Notes under the pieces: generated by a model | What the model was told of the DNA's origin: nothing | Databases searched by the model: none | Seen by the model: the letters and a program-made list of their open reading frames with translations, nothing else | Shown here: piece by piece, positions 3,597 through 53,292 of the stretch | How the letters are laid out: each line of letters begins with the position of its first letter | Numbering within the stretch: position 1 is the stretch's first letter | Assembly (NCBI GenBank): GCA_031292145.1 | Contig: JARLHR010000204.1 | Coordinates: 1-64,000 of the forward strand | DNA length: 64,000 nucleotides | DNA from: Clostridium sp. | GTDB taxonomy: Bacteria > Bacillota > Clostridia > Clostridiales > Clostridiaceae | Direction of reading: 5' to 3' | Translations under genes and position numbers: made by a program

Positions 3597-3723
3597 TAAA
3601 AAAAGCCTATAGAAATATTATCAAAATATCTCCCAGGCTTTTATCCTTCCGTGTACACAGTAAGCTGTGCGTTTTCTCTCGGACCTGCCAATTATAAATT
3701 GCGGAACCCTAGAAAACTAAACT
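3597..3723 (-). promoter_or_regulatory. ykkC-class riboswitch (guanidine-I or related subtype) with terminator platform
   Basis: Read on the minus strand, the RNA has the ykkC consensus blocks in order: CTAGGGTTCCGC, GGTCCGAGAGAAAAC, ACGGAAGGATAAAAGCC and TGGGAGA. The last block doubles as the 5' arm of an intrinsic terminator (AAGCCT ... AGGCTT, then TTTTTTT), the usual ON-switch layout in which ligand binding blocks termination. ykkC subtypes sense guanidine, ppGpp or PRPP, and I cannot assign the subtype by eye. It precedes the ACT-domain gene rather than a guanidine exporter or carboxylase. Confidence 0.8.
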
Positions 3724-34881: not shown

Positions 34882-36099
34882 TTATTTTGCATATCTCTTT
34901 ATTATTTCAATAATAATATTTGTACAAATATCCATGCCTTCAACTGTTATATGTTCAAATTCTCCATGATATGCAAATCCACCTGTTCCAAGGTTAGGAC
35001 ATGGTAATCCCATATAACTTAAGGTTGCTCCATCAGTACCGCCACGAATTGGTTCTACTACTGGTGTAACATTTAAAGCTTTCATGGCATCTATTGCATT
35101 ATCAATTAAATGCATACAAGGCTTAATATTTTCAAGCATATTCTTATATTGATCTCTTAAATTAACTCGTACTGTTCCATCACCATATTTTTCATTTAAT
35201 AATTTTTCTATTAATAGCATTGTAGACTTCTTATTTTCAAATTTATCACTATTGTGATCTCTTAAAATATATTTTAATGTTGCATGTTCTGTATTTCCAT
35301 TAAAGCTGTCTAAGTAATAAAACCCTTCATATCCCTCTGTATGTTCTGGTCTTTCACATGCAGGTAACATTGAGTTAAATTCAATTCCTATATTTGCTGC
35401 ATTAATCATTGTATTTTTTGCAGAACCTGGATGAACAGATACACCATGAATTACTACTTCAGCAGCTGCAGCATTGAAGTTTTCATAACAAATTTCCCCT
35501 TCAATTCCACCGTCAATTGTATAAGCAAAATCTGCACCAAAGTTTTTTACATCAAATAAATGAGCTCCAAGACCTACTTCTTCATCTGGCGTAAATCCAA
35601 TACAAATCTTACCATGAGGAATATTTTCTTTTATGATAGTTTCACAAGCTGTTAATATTTCAGCAATACCAGCCTTATCATCAGCGCCTAAAAGTGTAGT
35701 TCCATCAGTAGTAATAAGGGTTCTGCCCTTTAGCTCCTTTAGATGTGGGAATTTTTTAGGTGATAATACACTATTATTACCTTTTAAAATAACATCTCCA
35801 CCATCATAATTCTCAATAATTTGTGGATTAACATTTTCTCCACAAGCTGCTGGAGCAGTATCTATATGAGCTATAAGTCCTATACTTGGTTTATTTTCAT
35901 AGCCTTTAGTTGCAGGTATAACTCCATATACATAACAATGTTCATCAACTCTGCATTCTTGAAGTCCAATTTCCTTCATCTCTTCAACTAATATATTGGC
36001 TAAATCAAATTGCCTTTTTGTTGTAGGATGAGTACTTGAATCTTCATCTGACTTAGTATGCACCTTTACATATTTTAACAAACGTTCATAAGCTTTCAT
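34882..36099 (-). CDS. pepT: Peptidase T (tripeptide aminopeptidase)
   Basis: 405-residue M20B zinc peptidase that removes the N-terminal residue of tripeptides. Metal-ligand motifs are seen as IGLIAHIDTAPA, TTLLGADDKAGIAE, TPDEEVGLGA and the C-terminal NLGTGGFAYHGEFEH. Length and motif order match PepT along the chain. It is a single gene with its own terminator. Confidence 0.95.
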   Translation of the reverse strand: MKAYERLLKYVKVHTKSDEDSSTHPTTKRQFDLANILVEEMKEIGLQECRVDEHCYVYGVIPATKGYENKPSIGLIAHIDTAPAACGENVNPQIIENYDGGDVILKGNNSVLSPKKFPHLKELKGRTLITTDGTTLLGADDKAGIAEILTACETIIKENIPHGKICIGFTPDEEVGLGAHLFDVKNFGADFAYTIDGGIEGEICYENFNAAAAEVVIHGVSVHPGSAKNTMINAANIGIEFNSMLPACERPEHTEGYEGFYYLDSFNGNTEHATLKYILRDHNSDKFENKKSTMLLIEKLLNEKYGDGTVRVNLRDQYKNMLENIKPCMHLIDNAIDAMKALNVTPVVEPIRGGTDGATLSYMGLPCPNLGTGGFAYHGEFEHITVEGMDICTNIIIEIIKRYAK

Positions 36100-36143
36100 A
36101 ATTTTTTCTCCTTCTTTATTACTATAGTTCTCAAAAACAATGT

Positions 36144-36176
36144 TTTGCCTAATTAAGGCAAAATCAAAAAATAATT
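36144..36176. repeat. Eroded family 2 end
   Basis: TTTTGCC-TAATTAA-GGCAAAA is a perfect inverted repeat and runs on into AAGGCAAAATCAAAAAATAA, which matches the family 2 left end with one change. It probably is a remnant of an insertion. Confidence 0.45.
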
Positions 36177-36335
36177 ACATAACTATTTTACTTATTCCTC
36201 TTTTATAAATCAACAATTGCTTAAATATAATCTTAGTATTTTCTTTTAACTCCCTCTTTACTCATTCATAAATTGAAGTTAATAATTGTATGATATTTTA
36301 ATAATATAACTATTATATTAGAAGGATGGTGCAAA

Positions 36336-36923
36336 ATGCAGACTAAAAATTTAGAGGTTTGTGTTTACAATTTAAATTTCAAATCAATAAAGAAATCACA
36401 TCTATTTATAGGTTTATTAATCTCTTTATTGATAACTATTTCTTTTTCAATCATTAGTGATTTCATGGAGATTTTAAACAATGCTAACAGCAACATCATT
36501 TATGTCTCAAATTTCAAATCAGATATTACCAAGCTTAGTGAAACAGTTCTTTTTATTGAAAATGAGAGAAAAACTATGGGCGATCCATCAATAAATAGTT
36601 TTGGCTCTGATGGGCAAGCAATGAATTCAAAGGAAATTACACCTGATTTAACTACTGCATTAATAAGTATCGCAGACACAAACATGGATGAAAAAATATC
36701 CAATGACGAAATATTAGAACTTAAAGTCATGAGATTAGATAAAGATACTTTAAAAGAAAAACTAAAAACTCTTAATCTAAGATTACAATCAACAGATTGC
36801 AATTTAAATCATTATCTTGTCATAACTCAAGGAAAATATGCAGGTACAGTTATTTACAATGGCCCTTTTAAATTTATTGATAGTAATAATAAAAGATATT
36901 TTGGACTTGACCTATACGTTTAA
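36336..36923 (+). CDS. Membrane-anchored protein with EF-hand-like motif
   Basis: 195 residues. One N-terminal membrane helix (about 22-42) and an extracytoplasmic domain. DTNMDEKISNDE (about 109-120) fits the calcium-binding EF-hand loop at positions 1, 3, 5, 8 and 12, but the usual Gly at position 6 is Glu. No catalytic domain is recognised. The ATG has AGAAGGATGG upstream. It may be a calcium-responsive surface protein; that is inference. Confidence 0.6.
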   Translation: MQTKNLEVCVYNLNFKSIKKSHLFIGLLISLLITISFSIISDFMEILNNANSNIIYVSNFKSDITKLSETVLFIENERKTMGDPSINSFGSDGQAMNSKEITPDLTTALISIADTNMDEKISNDEILELKVMRLDKDTLKEKLKTLNLRLQSTDCNLNHYLVITQGKYAGTVIYNGPFKFIDSNNKRYFGLDLYV

Positions 36924-36963
36924 ATGAGTTTAGGTATTTAATTATTTTTTAACAAATTAAAAA

Positions 36964-36995
36964 AGGTAGATTAAACCACTTTGTTTAACCTACCT
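36964..36995 (-). terminator. Terminator of the agr-like operon
   Basis: AGGTAGATTAAAC / GTTTAACCTACCT stem, followed on the minus strand by TTTTTAATTTG. It lies 13 bases past the stop of the 55-residue protein gene and is the first terminator after the AgrD-like gene. Confidence 0.8.
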
Positions 36996-37008
36996 TCATT
37001 GCATATTG

Positions 37009-37176
37009 TTATGCTCGCAAAAACTCTTCATAATTCTCTATTTTATCCTCTCTATTGGTTTGTTTTAACCAATTATTATATTTTAAAATAGTTTTTTCTA
37101 GAGACTTAAGTTTAATTTCTCTACTTTTCTCCTTTTTCATTTCTGCGTACATATTTATTTTAATTATATTTCCCAT
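37009..37176 (-). CDS. Small charged protein, third gene of the agr-like cassette
   Basis: 55 residues, found by reading the minus strand below the kinase gene. AGGAGGTGG lies seven bases before the ATG. It starts MGNIIKINMYAEMKKEK and ends NREDKIENYEEFLRA, with a conserved NNWLKQTN in the middle; it should be mostly helical and soluble. A paralogue with the same layout is encoded at 45599-45769. The gene lies 104 bases after the kinase stop on the same strand, before the first terminator. Function unknown. Confidence 0.75.
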   Translation of the reverse strand: MGNIIKINMYAEMKKEKSREIKLKSLEKTILKYNNWLKQTNREDKIENYEEFLRA

Positions 37177-37280
37177 TAATTCCACCTCCTTCTAATTTAT
37201 AATACAAATAAACTTTAAAATTTCGGTACTAAAATTAGTCAAGAGTTAATACTTAATGAAAAATATCCTTCAGTCTTTAT

Positions 37281-38552
37281 TTAATTAATAACAGCTAAAT
37301 TTTCAAATTTTTCTATAGGAAAATCAATAATAAATTTAGTTCTAATTTCATTACTTTCAACAAATATTTTCCCATCATAACTTTCTATTAGTTCTTTAAC
37401 TATACTTAATCCATATCCATGATTTTTATCATTATCTTTTTTAGTAGTAAATCCCGACTGAAAAATCTTATCAATATGTTCCTTTGGTATCATTTCTCCA
37501 TCATTTTCTACTTCAATAATTATATTTTCATATTTATAATAAGAAGAAATAGTCAAAGTACCCTTATCCTTCATGGCTTTTACAGCGTTATTAACTATGT
37601 TTACAACTATTCGATATATTTCTATTTCAGATATTGCTAATAACGCTAAATTAGTGTTATCATTCACTATTATCTTTATATCCTTTGATTTAATATGTCT
37701 AGTTGCATATAATAACATGGATTGTTGATTTTTATTATTTACACTTAAATTTGCGTTAGTAGCTTCATTTATAATACTTTTTAGTAAATTTGATAAATCC
37801 TTATATTGACCCATCATACACAATTGATATAATGCTAACATTTGCGTTTCATAAGAATTTTTTATTTTTCTTAGCTCACTATTTTTAATTTCTAGTGCTC
37901 TATTTAATTTAAATATTTTATCTGCTCTTTCCTTTATTTTTATAAAGGAAATTATGCTAGTTATCATAAACATTACTAACAGTATGATTAAACTATATAC
38001 AAGAAATGACGATTCTTTCTTGTATGTGATGGAATAAAAAGAGACTAAAAAATCCGGAATTAATCCTGCTAAAGCAATATGATAAATGGATAAATTCTGA
38101 GATAATAATATTTTATAAACTCGCTCAAATGTCTTCACCTTTTTTATGACAAAAATGCATAATATCACTTGTAAAATATAAAGAAATATTATATTTAATA
38201 TTTCCATATGATCCTTAATAATAATTTTTTCTAATATCCCGCTTAAAATATTTCCAACTATTGTAATCCAAACAAGTAATACTGAATATACTAAATTAAA
38301 TGCTATCAATGCTTCTGTTATTTTCTTATAAAAAAATAGACTAACTACAAGCATAGCTAAAACATGTGTAATAAATACGTTTAGAGAAACATTTCCAAAT
38401 ATATTAGGAATAAAATATGCATCACACGATAATAATATTCCGCATAATACTAATTTACTAGTAATTCTTTTTTGATATCCCAAGCAATAATTTACAAAAT
38501 AAACAAAAAACACACTTTGAATTATTGTCATAATAATGTCTATGTAATTCAT
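37281..38552 (-). CDS. AgrC-like GHKL membrane kinase lacking the phospho-acceptor histidine
   Basis: 423 residues. Six or seven membrane helices fill residues 1-210, as in AgrC peptide receptors, followed by a coiled coil and a GHKL ATPase domain with N-box VNIVNNAVKAM, G1 VENDGEMIP and G2 NHGYGLSIVKEL. In the DHp segment (about 235-275, YETQMLALYQLCMMGQYKDL) the usual HD.xN box has no histidine. It lies 36 bases downstream of an AgrD-like peptide gene. It may signal without His phosphorylation or hand over to another protein. Confidence 0.85.
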   Translation of the reverse strand: MNYIDIIMTIIQSVFFVYFVNYCLGYQKRITSKLVLCGILLSCDAYFIPNIFGNVSLNVFITHVLAMLVVSLFFYKKITEALIAFNLVYSVLLVWITIVGNILSGILEKIIIKDHMEILNIIFLYILQVILCIFVIKKVKTFERVYKILLSQNLSIYHIALAGLIPDFLVSFYSITYKKESSFLVYSLIILLVMFMITSIISFIKIKERADKIFKLNRALEIKNSELRKIKNSYETQMLALYQLCMMGQYKDLSNLLKSIINEATNANLSVNNKNQQSMLLYATRHIKSKDIKIIVNDNTNLALLAISEIEIYRIVVNIVNNAVKAMKDKGTLTISSYYKYENIIIEVENDGEMIPKEHIDKIFQSGFTTKKDNDKNHGYGLSIVKELIESYDGKIFVESNEIRTKFIIDFPIEKFENLAVIN

Positions 38553-38588
38553 TCTAATTCACATCCCTCTATATTTATGGGTTTGCTT

Positions 38589-38717
38589 TTATCTTAATTT
38601 TTTCATTGATTCTGGCATATCTTCTACACCAGTTGTTCCAAATGATGCTGTGCAATATTTAATCATACCACCTGAAAGTTTAAATAATAATTTTCCAAAT
38701 ACTCTTTTAATTAACAT
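38589..38717 (-). CDS. AgrD-like cyclic autoinducer prepeptide
   Basis: 42 residues. An amphipathic basic N-terminal helix (MLIKRVFGKLLFKLSGG) leads to IKYCTASF, where the single cysteine and the four residues after it could form a thiolactone ring, and an acidic C-terminal tail EDMPESMKKL like the recognition tail of AgrD (PxE...L). GAGGTG lies six bases before the ATG. It has its own promoter and is followed directly by the AgrC-like kinase. No AgrB protease gene is in the window, so processing would need one elsewhere. Confidence 0.75.
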   Translation of the reverse strand: MLIKRVFGKLLFKLSGGMIKYCTASFGTTGVEDMPESMKKLR

Positions 38718-38904
38718 AAAAATCACCTCAAAAATTATTTGTTTTTTGATAGCAAAAAATAATCTCATATTCTAAAAACTTTTATTAGGGATGTGAATTA
38801 TAACTTTTTCTTGATCACTAGGAATAAAAAACTAAAAGTGTATATTGTTTTTTACAATGTTTGTTCAAAACTTTTCTCATATTACCTTTTACTACCATGT
38901 CCAA

Positions 38905-38933
38905 ATTATAGCAAAACATTCCATATCTTTCAA
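38905..38933 (-). promoter_or_regulatory. SigA promoter of the agr-like operon
   Basis: TTGAAA and TATAAT with exactly 17 bp between them read on the minus strand; the predicted start is near 38898. This gives a leader of about 180 bases before the AgrD-like ATG. Confidence 0.75.
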
Positions 38934-38985
38934 TGTAATTTTGAAAAAAATGTAGAAATTATAGTTAACTATGGTTTAATTTGCA

Positions 38986-39015
38986 CAAAAAAGCCTCAAC
39001 TCTTAAGTTAAGACT
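38986..39015 (-). terminator. Terminator of the FMN-binding protein gene
   Basis: On the minus strand AGTCTTAACT / AGTTGAGGCT pair with two G-U wobbles around a TAAG loop and are followed by TTTTTT. The stem is good only on this strand, so it insulates the agr-like promoter from the upstream gene. Confidence 0.75.
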
Positions 39016-39096
39016 TTTTACTTCAAATATTATTTTTTATTTTGCTATAGTTTTTTCTAATAAATTTTTTTCACTTTATTTTAGGGCATTTTTAAG

Positions 39097-39483
39097 TTAT
39101 TTATCCAATGCATTTTGTATTGCTTTTAGGATAACTTTGCTACTATTTGTTGCCCCTGAAACTGCATCTACCTTTAAGCTTTGTGCCTTTACTACCCTTT
39201 CCGGAATCACTTCTGCTTTGGCACCTCTTTCATTTTTATGTTCTATTAGTTTTATATTACTTATTTTTTTGTCCTTAATATCTACCTCTACCTTTGCAGC
39301 AATAAAATCCACATCAAATTCCCCAAAGTATTCCCCATCTTCTTTATTTTCTAAATTCACGTCATTAATAACTATGTTCTTTACCTTTTCTTTATAATCA
39401 TGTACACTCTTTAAATATTTAATTCCTAATATGCAGGCAGCCACTACTATAACTATTACTGCAACAATAATGTATTTTTTCAT
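39097..39483 (-). CDS. FMN-binding domain protein, membrane anchored
   Basis: 128 residues. An N-terminal membrane helix (about 4-23) is followed by an FMN_bind domain of the RnfG/NqrC type, with the flavin-attachment-like stretch VSGATNSSKVI near residue 110. It may bind FMN covalently through the Thr of SGAT and carry electrons at the outer membrane face. It is a short stand-alone version, with no rnf genes nearby. Confidence 0.85.
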   Translation of the reverse strand: MKKYIIVAVIVIVVAACILGIKYLKSVHDYKEKVKNIVINDVNLENKEDGEYFGEFDVDFIAAKVEVDIKDKKISNIKLIEHKNERGAKAEVIPERVVKAQSLKVDAVSGATNSSKVILKAIQNALDK

Positions 39484-39594
39484 TTTTCATATCCCTCCCA
39501 AATTAATTTAAAAATTAAGCACTTTTCCTTTATACTACAGATAACTCTTTCTCTCTATTTTTTCTCAGCTTACTTCACACTATCAAATTTATAA

Positions 39595-40215
39595 TTATTT
39601 TCCATGGGCTTTGATTGAATTTAAAATAAAATCCAAACCATTTTCAATTACATCCTTAACCTCCTTTTTAAAATGATCTTTTATATATGCTTCCTTTCTT
39701 ATGAATGTAGTAACAAACCCCATAAGTGTTGACCAAAGTATTAAAGAAATACTTGCCTCATCAACTGTATCTATGATTTCTCCTTTTCTAATTCCTTCCC
39801 TAATACAGTTTTGTAAAAGCTCTATAATTGTTTGCTCTAGCTCTTCACTTCCTACATATGAATATTCACTTTCAAAAATTGCTTTAAAATACCCTCTATT
39901 TTCTGCTTCAAACTCAAGAAATGAATATCCTAATGCTCGAATTTTAAAAATCTCAGAAGAATTTTTCTTTTTGTTCAAAACTTCTAAAAATAATTTATTT
40001 AAAATTATATAACCTCGCTCCACAATTTTTTCATACATTTCTTCTTTGCTCGTAAAATAACTATACAATGTCCTTTTCGTAAATCCAGCTTCTTTTGCTA
40101 TTTCATCCATTGTAGAATTGCTGTATCCTTTGCTAAAGAATAACTTTTCCGCCGCATCTATTATTTCACTTTTATTCATATTTTTTCTCTTTTCCTTTTT
40201 ACTTATGTCTTCCAT
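39595..40215 (-). CDS. TetR family transcriptional regulator
   Basis: 206 residues. The N-terminal helix-turn-helix is typical: AEKLFFSKGYSNSTMDEIAK followed by GFTKRTLYSYFTSKEEMY. The C-terminal ligand domain is not informative. A 51-bp palindrome directly upstream suggests autoregulation. The FMN-binding protein gene 111 bases downstream on the same strand may be part of its regulon. Confidence 0.9.
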   Translation of the reverse strand: MEDISKKEKRKNMNKSEIIDAAEKLFFSKGYSNSTMDEIAKEAGFTKRTLYSYFTSKEEMYEKIVERGYIILNKLFLEVLNKKKNSSEIFKIRALGYSFLEFEAENRGYFKAIFESEYSYVGSEELEQTIIELLQNCIREGIRKGEIIDTVDEASISLILWSTLMGFVTTFIRKEAYIKDHFKKEVKDVIENGLDFILNSIKAHGK

Positions 40216-40229
40216 ATTGTATTCTCCTT

Positions 40230-40280
40230 AAATAAATTACACTTACAGTATACAAAGTATACTATAAGTGTAATTTATTT
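40230..40280. promoter_or_regulatory. Palindromic operator for the TetR regulator
   Basis: AAATAAATTACACTTA and TAAGTGTAATTTATTT are exact inverted repeats around AGTATAC-aaa-GTATACT; only one pair (40246/40264) is mismatched in 51 bp. It lies 15 bases ahead of the regulator ATG. Confidence 0.8.
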
Positions 40281-40520
40281 CTTATGCTTTTGTCAATTCT
40301 AATTTATAATTTACCATAATTACTTTTTATGTGGTAATTAAAAAATGTATTTTTTATAATATTTGATATGTTATTTTTTTTATATTCACATAACATTCTT
40401 TGTATAGTATAATCATTTATATAAAAATCACCCGATTGCTAATATATATATCCGAATTAGTAGTTTGACTTATTAGATGACCATGTTTACATATTTTCTA
40501 ACTCTTAATAGGGATATCTT

Positions 40521-40788
40521 CACCAGAAATAATAAATATTTTTGTGCAGAAGGCATTTGAAAATGAGCTGTTAAAGGTTCTTAAGTAGTGAGCCCAAATC
40601 TATGATTTGGTGTGAATCACTTACTCAGCGAACGAATGTGAGTCGAGTTTCCTTTTAAATTATCCAATTTAGCTTGTCACGCTGAAAGCGGGAGCATGCT
40701 GAATTGGGTGCAACTTGCAACTTAGAACCTTCAGCGATATTTTCATAGTCCTTCGAAATAAAAATATTTATAATTTCGGTAAGTTACC
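40521..40788 (-). repeat. Family 1 hairpin element (copy F)
   Basis: CCAGAAAT ... ATTTCGGTAAGTTA ends, arm AATAAATATTTTT with its complement, constant TTTGAAAATGAGCTGTTAA and TCAGCGATATTTTCATAGTC, arms AGGTTCTTAAG / CTTAGAACCT and CAATTTAGCTTG / CATGCTGAATTG. A 65-bp insert (40593-40655) is shared with copy E. Confidence 0.8.
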
Positions 40789-40855
40789 ACATAAGTCTAG
40801 ATTATAAGAATTTGGTTTATCTATATCTTATTTTGATTCAAAACGGAGGAAACAT

Positions 40856-41914
40856 ATGAAATTAAATATTAAAGCAAACAATGAAAACGTTAGAATATTA
40901 GGAAGAACAAAAATTATCGATGATATAAGGTATATTAACTATTCTTGTTCTGGAATAGAATTTGTATTTACAGGAACAGAGGCTAGTGTACTTTTGTGTA
41001 CTGACGGTTCAAAATGGGATGAAATGTTAAAAGCATGGGTTGCGGTTTTCATAGATGATGAATTAGTACCTAGCAAGAGATTTCTTTTAGATTGTGATGA
41101 AAAAGTTTATAACTTATTCGAATCTACTGAACCACGTACTGTTAAAATAAAATTAATGAAAATGTCAGAAGCAGCTTTTGCAAAAGTAGGCATTAAAGAA
41201 ATAATATTAAATGGAAAAGATGTACAACCTACTGAAAGTAAAAATCGTTCCATTGAATTTATAGGTGATTCAATAACCTGTGGATATGGAAATGAAGGCG
41301 TTTGGGAAGTTGATACCTTTAATACAGCTCAAGAAAATCCTTGGGAAGCATATGCAGCTAAAACAGCACGTTATTTTAATGCTGATTTCAATTGCGTTTC
41401 ATGGAGTGGAATAGGCATCATATCATCATGGACAGAAGTAGATACTCCAAATACTGAATGGCTTATGCCAATGCTTTATAAATATACTGATGCTGGAATA
41501 GATCAAGATTTCAAGAAAACAGAATATGAGCTTTGGAATAATAATTTATTTATACCTCAGGTAATTGTTATTAATTTAGGTACAAATGATGCAAGTTATA
41601 CAAAAAATATTAAAGAAAGACTAGATGAATTTACAGATGGTTACCATAAACTCTTAAAACAAGTCAGACATTGCAATCCAAATGCAGAAATAATCTGTTC
41701 ATTAGGTGCTATGGGACAAAATTTGTGTCCATCTGTTGAAGAAGCTGTACTAGCCTTTAAAAATGAGACTCACGATCTCAAAATACACACAATGCGTTTT
41801 GATGTTCAGTTAGAAACCGATGGCATCGGATCCGATTGGCATCCAAGCTTAAAAACTCATGATAAAATGTCAAAGCAACTAATTAGCAAAATAAACGAAG
41901 TAACTGGTTGGTAA
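40856..41914 (+). CDS. SGNH/GDSL carbohydrate esterase (CE2-like)
   Basis: 352 residues: an N-terminal jelly-roll-like domain (about 1-125) and a C-terminal SGNH hydrolase domain, the CE2 acetyl esterase layout. Catalytic Ser is in IEFIGDSITCGYG (about residue 144), the block III Asn in NLGTNDASY, and the Asp/His pair in GIGSDWHPSLKTH. There is no signal peptide, so it should act on acetylated sugars in the cytoplasm. GGAGG precedes the ATG. Confidence 0.88.
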   Translation: MKLNIKANNENVRILGRTKIIDDIRYINYSCSGIEFVFTGTEASVLLCTDGSKWDEMLKAWVAVFIDDELVPSKRFLLDCDEKVYNLFESTEPRTVKIKLMKMSEAAFAKVGIKEIILNGKDVQPTESKNRSIEFIGDSITCGYGNEGVWEVDTFNTAQENPWEAYAAKTARYFNADFNCVSWSGIGIISSWTEVDTPNTEWLMPMLYKYTDAGIDQDFKKTEYELWNNNLFIPQVIVINLGTNDASYTKNIKERLDEFTDGYHKLLKQVRHCNPNAEIICSLGAMGQNLCPSVEEAVLAFKNETHDLKIHTMRFDVQLETDGIGSDWHPSLKTHDKMSKQLISKINEVTGW

Positions 41915-45598: not shown

Positions 45599-45769
45599 TT
45601 ATTGAGCATGTAAAAATTCCTCATAAGTTTCTATTCTATCCTCCTTGTTAGTCTTCCTTAACCAACTATTATATTCTAAAATAACTTCTTCAATTGTTTT
45701 TAGCATTAATTTATTATTCTTTTCTCTTTTCATTCTAACATACAGATTAATTTTAATTATATTTCCCAT
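45599..45769 (-). CDS. Small charged protein, paralogue of the agr-cassette protein
   Basis: 56 residues, starting MGNIIKINLYVRMKREK and ending KEDRIETYEEFLHAQ with a central NSWLRKTN. It matches the protein at 37009-37176 position for position over its whole length. ATG at 45769 has AAGG eight bases upstream. It is not next to any peptide or kinase gene, but an IS200-like remnant lies just upstream. Confidence 0.7.
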   Translation of the reverse strand: MGNIIKINLYVRMKREKNNKLMLKTIEEVILEYNSWLRKTNKEDRIETYEEFLHAQ

Positions 45770-53039: not shown

Positions 53040-53292
53040 ATATAGAATATACTTTCTGGAATATTCGTTAAGCTCTTATTTTGAACCTACATATTAATTA
53101 CGGGAGTTCAATATTTAGATGAAGAAATGTACTTTCATGTGAGTCCTTTAACGGCTTTGAAGGCGATTGAAACCTCTGTGAGGACACCCACCTATCGGGA
53201 GATAGGTGTCAAAATTGGAGTACCGGTATTTTGGATATAATATTTGTAAATTTTAAGCCAATGCTTATTTTAATTAAGCATTGGCTTTTTTC
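53040..53292 (+). ncRNA. Structured non-coding RNA, 6S RNA candidate
   Basis: No reading frame, but ordered stems: TTGAAC / GTTCAA enclosing CTACATATTAATTACGGGA, a GTCC ... GGAC pairing around CCTC-TGT-GAGG, and the perfect hairpin CACCTATC-GGGA-GATAGGTG. It ends in AAGCCAATGCTTA / TAAGCATTGGCTT with a T tail. The TTGAACC ... GGGAGTT pair and the ACACCCACCT segment resemble what I recall of firmicute 6S RNAs (RNA polymerase regulators). The 5' end is not certain and the family call is tentative. Confidence 0.5.
53257..53292 (+). terminator. Terminator of the structured RNA
   Basis: AAGCCAATGCTTA / TAAGCATTGGCTT is a 12-13 bp stem with an A/T loop and a TTTTTT tail. Confidence 0.9.

Follow-up and report, generated by a model that had tools for sequence, protein, structure and literature searches.

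On the minus strand of a 64,000-nt stretch of Clostridium sp. DNA (contig JARLHR010000204.1; hereafter "the window"), positions 38933 to 36962 hold, in this order, a promoter match, a 42-aa prepeptide, a 423-aa receptor, a 55-aa protein, and a terminator match. The AgrD-like prepeptide (38589..38717, RBS GAGGTGATTTTT-ATG), assigned from homologous peptides, is separated by 36 nt from the AgrC-like receptor (37281..38552), which was recognized from its Pfam domains, hydrophobic segments, and family alignment. A gap of 104 nt leads to the gene for the 55-aa charged protein, a member of a dispersed multicopy family (37009..37176, ATG at 37176, RBS GAAGGAGGTGGAATTA), and a further 11 nt to the terminator match; an RBS-like stretch precedes the ATG of all three genes. 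The sigma-70-type promoter match (38905..38933, TTGAAA-17-TATAAT with a TG extension, 11/12 positions) has the top minus-strand score in the scanned 3.4 kb, where one plus-strand site ties with it, and promoter matches as a class do not exceed shuffle expectation there (32 vs a shuffle mean of 28). Similarly, the intrinsic-terminator match (36962..36997, a 15-pair stem followed by a T run) is the only one found, against a shuffle mean of 0.6, and is not significant by count alone. The promoter-to-terminator placement proposed in a prior sequence-only reading of this locus holds to the extent that both matches are present, though neither class stands out from shuffled sequence by count.

That reading had also described an agr-like peptide and receptor unaccompanied by agrB or agrA, and the genes do lie as it placed them: among the ORFs of 35000-41000, inspection by eye recognized no agrB or LytTR-type agrA beside the pair, and the sole regulator recognized in this interval (by Pfam) is of the TetR type (39595-40215). 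No second kinase was found adjoining the receptor, and Rfam returned no RNA family at the locus. Elsewhere in the window, Rfam detected a Guanidine-I riboswitch (3628-3723, minus strand, 85 bits) and a 6S RNA gene (53050-53241, plus strand, 55 bits). Judged from its sequence, the locus carries an orphan agrD-agrC pair of the serine type, whose receptor lacks the acceptor His.

The window prepeptide comprises a leader, a predicted ring S25-F-G-T-T29 (codons 38631..38645, minus strand, placed through an alignment of 48 peptides), and an acidic tail, GVEDMPESMKKLR. It had no library match in Pfam or NCBIfam, and its layout is that of homologues adjoining AgrB, i.e., a leader, a ring residue, and an acidic Pro-containing tail. 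Overall, 48 distinct family peptides were found upstream of 50 of the 86 same-family receptors described below, which marks the 42-residue frame as no chance ORF. Recording of a peptide required a match of its tail to a permissive Pro pattern, one that asks for neither Ser nor Glu, and unrecorded ones may reflect contig ends or divergent tails. All 48 carry a Ser ten residues and a Glu three residues before the tail Pro; none has a Cys at the ring-Ser position, and 15 have one elsewhere in the last 34 residues. In the window peptide, Cys22 lies three residues upstream of the ring position and outside it. A thiolactone formed through this Cys was considered and is unlikely, as its offset from the Pro is 13, where 2/48 peptides have Cys, while Ser occupies offset 10 in 48/48. 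The Ser-to-Pro spacing of 10 equals the Cys spacing in two of the three AgrD peptides of this genome's own, and the last Cys of the third is at 9 from the tail Pro (both by eye). Because Ser is at the ring position in every family peptide, lactones are predicted for the family, and a five-residue Ser lactone, SFGTT, is the natural prediction for the window signal.

The receptor matches the Pfam families HATPase_c (E 4.6e-21) and GHKL (E 1.9e-10), with no other domain above cut-off, and shows seven hydrophobic segments before residue 202, along with a weak profile hit on S. aureus AgrC (4bxi; E 1.3e-4). The labels AgrC-type, DHp, and HPK are applied to this protein and its parts. Its DHp-like region has no phospho-acceptor His, and its GHKL ATP-binding domain is intact. 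The usual family motif is KIKHDYGAQISYLYG or a close form, and the window receptor carries KIKNSYETQMLALYQ, with Asn232 (codon 37857..37859, minus strand) at the acceptor site in an alignment column of 66 receptors. Within this set, whose 66 rows include named records and overlap in part with the 86-receptor table below, the column is His in 46/46 complete and 5/5 ATP-less receptors and in 0/15 His-less ones, which have N (8), D (4), C (1), G (1), or Y (1) instead. The ATP-site columns N322, N350, G352, G379, and G381 are intact in all 15 His-less receptors, and the last three of these are kept in none of the five ATP-less receptors. The receptor is therefore more unusual than the sequence-only reading had claimed: lacking the phospho-acceptor His, it would support no canonical phosphorelay by itself.

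We then placed the receptor within its family. Searches with a profile built from the ATP-less receptors (E <= 1e-20) detected the family in 59/206 genomes of the bacterial family, spanning 13/46 genera. From the loci and regions of these 59 genomes, ORFs of 330-520 aa were tabulated, with duplicates within a genome removed; of 88 profile matches, three were left out (one fragment in G025 and two in G038), and one G037 receptor was added via its neighbor. The resulting 86 distinct receptors include 66 complete ones, 15 that are His-less with an intact ATP site, and 5 that are ATP-less with an intact His; none lacks both. Complete receptors have agrB within 1.5 kb in 44/66 cases and a peptide upstream in 39/66, contig ends not being allowed for, and no agrA was seen by eye in the gene lists around family receptors. 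The AgrBs of one complete locus (L101) and one split-pair locus (L097) both scored above the Pfam AgrB cut-off. What is conserved is the pair of peptide and receptor, an orphan branch of this wider family, whose complete members often follow agrB.

The two deficient classes are found together. Each of the five ATP-less receptors directly adjoins a His-less one (genomes G001, G065, G067, G032, and G037). In the first three, agrB and the peptide gene come first, followed by the His-less and then the ATP-less receptor; in G032 and G037, the adjacent pair lies next to the gene flanking the ancestral locus, and neither agrB nor a peptide accompanies it. At these split-pair loci (L097, L098, L099, L198, and L199, in five Clostridium genomes), the His-less kinase with the ATP site comes first and the ATP-less kinase with the His second. 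Separate His-less receptors that still have their own agrB and peptide were also observed in G012 (L094) and G021 (L126 and L204), two genomes that hold complete family receptors as well. His-less receptors are present in 13 of the 21 genomes with at least two family receptors vs 1 of the 38 with a single one (Fisher p 6e-7, relatedness ignored); the search scored up to eight candidates per genome, so that some copies may have been missed and the single-receptor group (n=38) may be too large, and all receptor candidates were scored in ten key genomes. Of the 14 genomes with His-less receptors, 13 contain a His-bearing relative too; the window genome is the sole exception. By sequence, there is a gene pair, a loss of His with retention of the ATP site, and adjacent half-kinases in five related genomes; this complementary loss pattern is what a division of labor would be expected to leave.

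Phylogenies suggest that these losses recurred. At least four His-loss events are needed on the full tree, and four also on a tree of the membrane part. A single origin of His loss was tested and rejected (p-AU 0.00065 on the membrane-part tree, for a group named after the first tree was seen), and well-supported branches alone force at least two losses. On the full tree the ATP-less receptors fall into a single group, whereas the membrane-part tree requires two events for them, so that the split may have had one or two origins. All of these were quick trees with long branches flagged. As for selection, dN/dS between G003 and G002 is 0.18 over the whole His-less receptor and 0.087 for the complete receptors of both genomes, and the receptors are, on these ratios, under purifying selection. 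Between the window genome (G000) and its nearest relative G023, dN/dS is 0.08 in the ATP domain vs 0.37 in the DHp part, with synonymous sites near saturation, whereas the G003/G002 comparison shows a reversed contrast or none (DHp part 0.11, ATP domain 0.17). The G000/G023 contrast would suit a subunit that holds ATP.

The window receptor belongs to a clade of eight His-less receptors from seven genomes (SH-aLRT 100). In this clade, positions 240 and 243, near-invariant in the motif, never match the complete class, and motif positions 233, 235, and 239 agree with it only partly; invariant positions number 45/131 in the ATP domain, 22/82 in the DHp part, and 18/210 in the membrane part. None of the eight has an adjoining agrB in the sequence available, with two contigs ending 422 and 153 nt downstream. 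An intact peptide lies upstream at 6/8 loci, and at 2/8 it is eroded or unrecognizable: in the syntenic cassette of G023 the peptide has stops in all frames, and at one G029 locus it is eroded (by eye). The ancestral locus keeps agrB, the peptide, and a complete receptor in G002, G003, G031, and G033. In G029, agrB and the complete receptor persist there beside an eroded peptide (by eye), and the only intact family peptide seen in that genome sits in an orphan cassette; in G023 only the complete receptor is left. We looked for the ancestral B-D-C locus in the window genome and located one of its flanking genes, with no agr gene beside it and no tblastn match below E 0.1 to AgrB or the receptor in the 16-kb stretch at that flank.

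With all candidates scored, the window genome yielded neither a second family receptor nor an ATP-less partner. Its three AgrB genes, all on other contigs, reach 21-34% in local alignments vs 52-80% within the cognate type, and a cognate-type AgrB was found in none of the window genome, G023, G032, and G037. The window assembly is a draft of 282 contigs (95.85% complete), and the absence of partner and cognate AgrB is accordingly provisional. By eye, L112 holds agrB together with genes for an AgrD, a regulator, and an AgrC-like protein, and at L113 (G000:C276, 4507-8576) agrB and an AgrD lie opposite in direction to a tandem of two receptor-like ORFs and a regulator-like ORF. At L111 (G000:C152), a Cys-type AgrD (...SACFYSSYQPEEPKCLREE) comes after agrB, no receptor was recognized alongside by eye, and this agrB is a possible processing source for orphan peptides.

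Histidine kinases are usually described as homodimers in which each copy has its own ATP site and His. We favor a reading, to which we would give slightly less than an even chance, in which the window holds an orphan pair whose His-less receptor acts through the His of a partner. The pair would be an offshoot of an agrB-agrD-agrC system whose signal peptides have serine rings and which occurs widely across Clostridium and related genera. Its prepeptide would probably be cut and cyclized by an AgrB encoded elsewhere, giving the lactone Ser-Phe-Gly-Thr-Thr. The receptor, which retains the membrane sensor and the ATP-binding domain without the acceptor His, would most likely contribute the ATP-holding half of a mixed receptor dimer. 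The His of a putative partner kinase would then be phosphorylated in trans, or the partner modulated, as proposed for FasB with FasC; the response regulator, like the partner, is putative. In favor of this reading are the class counts, with no receptor deficient in both parts, the adjacency of every ATP-less receptor to a His-less one, the recurrent loss of His, the concentration of His-less receptors in genomes with several family receptors, the dN/dS values, and the intact peptide of the G029 orphan cassette. Trans-autophosphorylation has been described for AgrC (PMC12312760). More broadly, clostridial agr receptors may have been repeatedly divided into complementary half-kinases, with orphan cassettes supplying a peptide and an ATP-half for a receptor elsewhere, although we regard this generalization as somewhat doubtful.

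Several observations weigh against a mixed dimer. The draft window genome offers no same-family partner or cognate-type AgrB that we could find, which leaves room for the roles of eavesdropper or relic. The complete class is the commonest, so that its co-occurrence with His-less receptors would often be expected for unrelated reasons. In addition, agrB and peptide are both absent beside the G032 and G037 split pairs, the peptide is eroded in the syntenic cassette of G023 and at the G029 locus, and the one ancestral flank located in the window genome has no agr genes next to it. In the G003/G002 comparison, moreover, the DHp part is no less constrained than the ATP domain, and the complete receptors are under stronger constraint overall.

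An unlikely alternative is that the receptor binds peptide and ATP but transfers no phosphate, as an allosteric or decoy receptor like DivL or RetS. In that role it would tune or block a complete AgrC through mixed dimers, or soak up its own or a neighbor's peptide. The alteration of the His and of positions 240 and 243 in 8/8 members of the window clade, with the ATP site kept, fits such a function, and DivL provides an example of a pseudo-histidine kinase with its other motifs retained (PMC4211667). This explanation nevertheless does not account for the adjacency of all five ATP-less relatives to a His-less receptor, and the window genome yielded no complete family member that it could tune.

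We also consider it rather unlikely that the pair is a leftover, slowly decaying after agrB and the complete receptor were lost from the window genome. A relic would be consistent with the failure to find either of these genes in that genome, with the peptide erosion at 2/8 clade loci, and with the lack of agr genes at the single ancestral flank located. It is harder to reconcile with the intact peptide and receptor frames and RBSs, accompanied by promoter and terminator matches, with the intact peptide at 6/8 clade loci, and with the constraint on the ATP domain between G000 and G023 (dN/dS 0.08, though dS is high).

Alternatively, the window clade could phosphorylate a relocated acceptor, His286 (codon 37695..37697, minus strand), near the end of the DHp, and still be an ordinary homodimeric kinase. 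This His is one of four columns fixed specifically in the clade, present in 8/8 of its receptors and 0/46 complete relatives, and the later His284 of FasB has been called a possible site by its authors (PMC12675982). We judge this improbable: it would cover only one of four His-less lineages, with a His at this position in 1/7 of the other His-less receptors, and the residues beside the old acceptor are changed as well.

Finally, the sequence-only reading had proposed a new three-gene cassette with the 55-aa protein as its output or partner, and the adjacency of receptor and small gene in both the window and the syntenic G023 locus, the 104 nt between them, and the terminator match after the small gene do point that way, but the proposal appears highly improbable and is largely refuted by the distribution of the small-protein family, which lies near a family receptor at only 2/75 fetched loci, is dispersed among varied neighbors, and is missing from the other six window-clade loci (at one of which, L088 in G033, the contig ends 153 nt after the receptor). 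Outside the window, only G023 among the fetched loci shows the small gene near the receptor. We accordingly rejected the small protein as a cassette member; its gene may share a transcript with the pair by position and is not part of the conserved signaling pair. The family (consensus MGNIIKINMY...YNxWLKKTNREDKIENYExFLQA) has nine strong copies in the window genome and strong matches (E <= 1.5e-10) in 21/68 genomes of the genus, and neither Pfam nor NCBIfam assigns the protein to a family above a curated cut-off.

Other small-family copies have neighbors of their own. A second copy in the window (45605-45769, minus strand, 62% identical) lies away from family receptors. A family of ~86-102-aa proteins (e.g., ...INGWRFSPIAIITNGKEDYYFI) was seen by eye within ~1.6 kb of several copies and recurs at L057, L059, L060, L063, L065, and L107. 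In the window, a 195-aa protein that begins with a hydrophobic stretch in its N-terminal part (36336-36923, plus strand) is convergent with the small gene, and at L062 a protein with a similar start (MQTKKLTIYTYNIN...) is convergent with another small-family copy.

The preferred reading of a His-less receptor working through a partner bears on signaling more widely. In clostridia, sporulation and butanol production are said to be under agr control (PMC12312760). If receptors are indeed divided in this way, quorum sensing would be read by mixed receptors joining two peptide inputs, and the family would show how quorum-sensing receptors become modular. The family displays natural loss of the His or of the ATP site in more than one lineage, in small two-kinase gene pairs that lend themselves to direct testing, and it also contributes predicted serine-ring signals from clostridia. 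Both orphan agrDC pairs (PMC8748961) and one split sensor-kinase pair (PMC12675982) are already known, and no description of this clostridial receptor class or of its split pairs was found among open-licence papers, covered mostly through titles and the starts of abstracts. Relative to that open-licence literature, the combination of an orphan pair with an acceptor-less receptor, and complementary loss across a clostridial agr family, would be new.

Among the closest known systems is agr of staphylococci and clostridia (AgrBDCA), with which the window locus shares an AgrC-like polytopic receptor with a GHKL domain and an AgrD-like prepeptide made up of a leader, a ring position, and a tail of acidic character; relatives also carry Pfam AgrB. 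It differs in having no agrB or agrA, a Ser in place of the ring Cys, and a receptor without the phospho-acceptor His. In C. autoethanogenum, orphan agrD-agrC pairs that lack both agrB and agrA have been reported, and the agrD2-agrC2 pair is likewise proposed to share an AgrB encoded elsewhere; its peptides are described as having a Pro-X-X-Pro motif (PMC8748961), and, unlike what is proposed there, a cognate-type AgrB was not found in the window genome. Serine-lactone AIPs are represented by those of S. pseudintermedius, E. faecalis (GBAP), and C. difficile Agr2, as cited in PMC12312760, which have Ser as the ring residue as here, whereas in the clostridial family Ser is the rule across all 48 peptides. 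DivL of Caulobacter resembles the window receptor in having a histidine-kinase fold in which another residue stands in for the acceptor His and the remaining motifs persist, and differs from it in its PAS-type sensor part, in the Tyr at its acceptor site, and in regulating the CckA pathway (PMC4211667). The FasB/FasC heterodimer of group A Streptococcus, described in 2025, is reported to require the His of FasC (H246) and the kinase domain of FasB (PMC12675982). The window receptor, with ATP-site residues and no acceptor His, may play a comparable subunit role, and differs in having no adjacent partner, which its relatives in G001, G065, G067, G032, and G037 do have. In contrast to FasB and FasC, the clostridial pairs have lost these parts from the sequence itself, and in more than one lineage.
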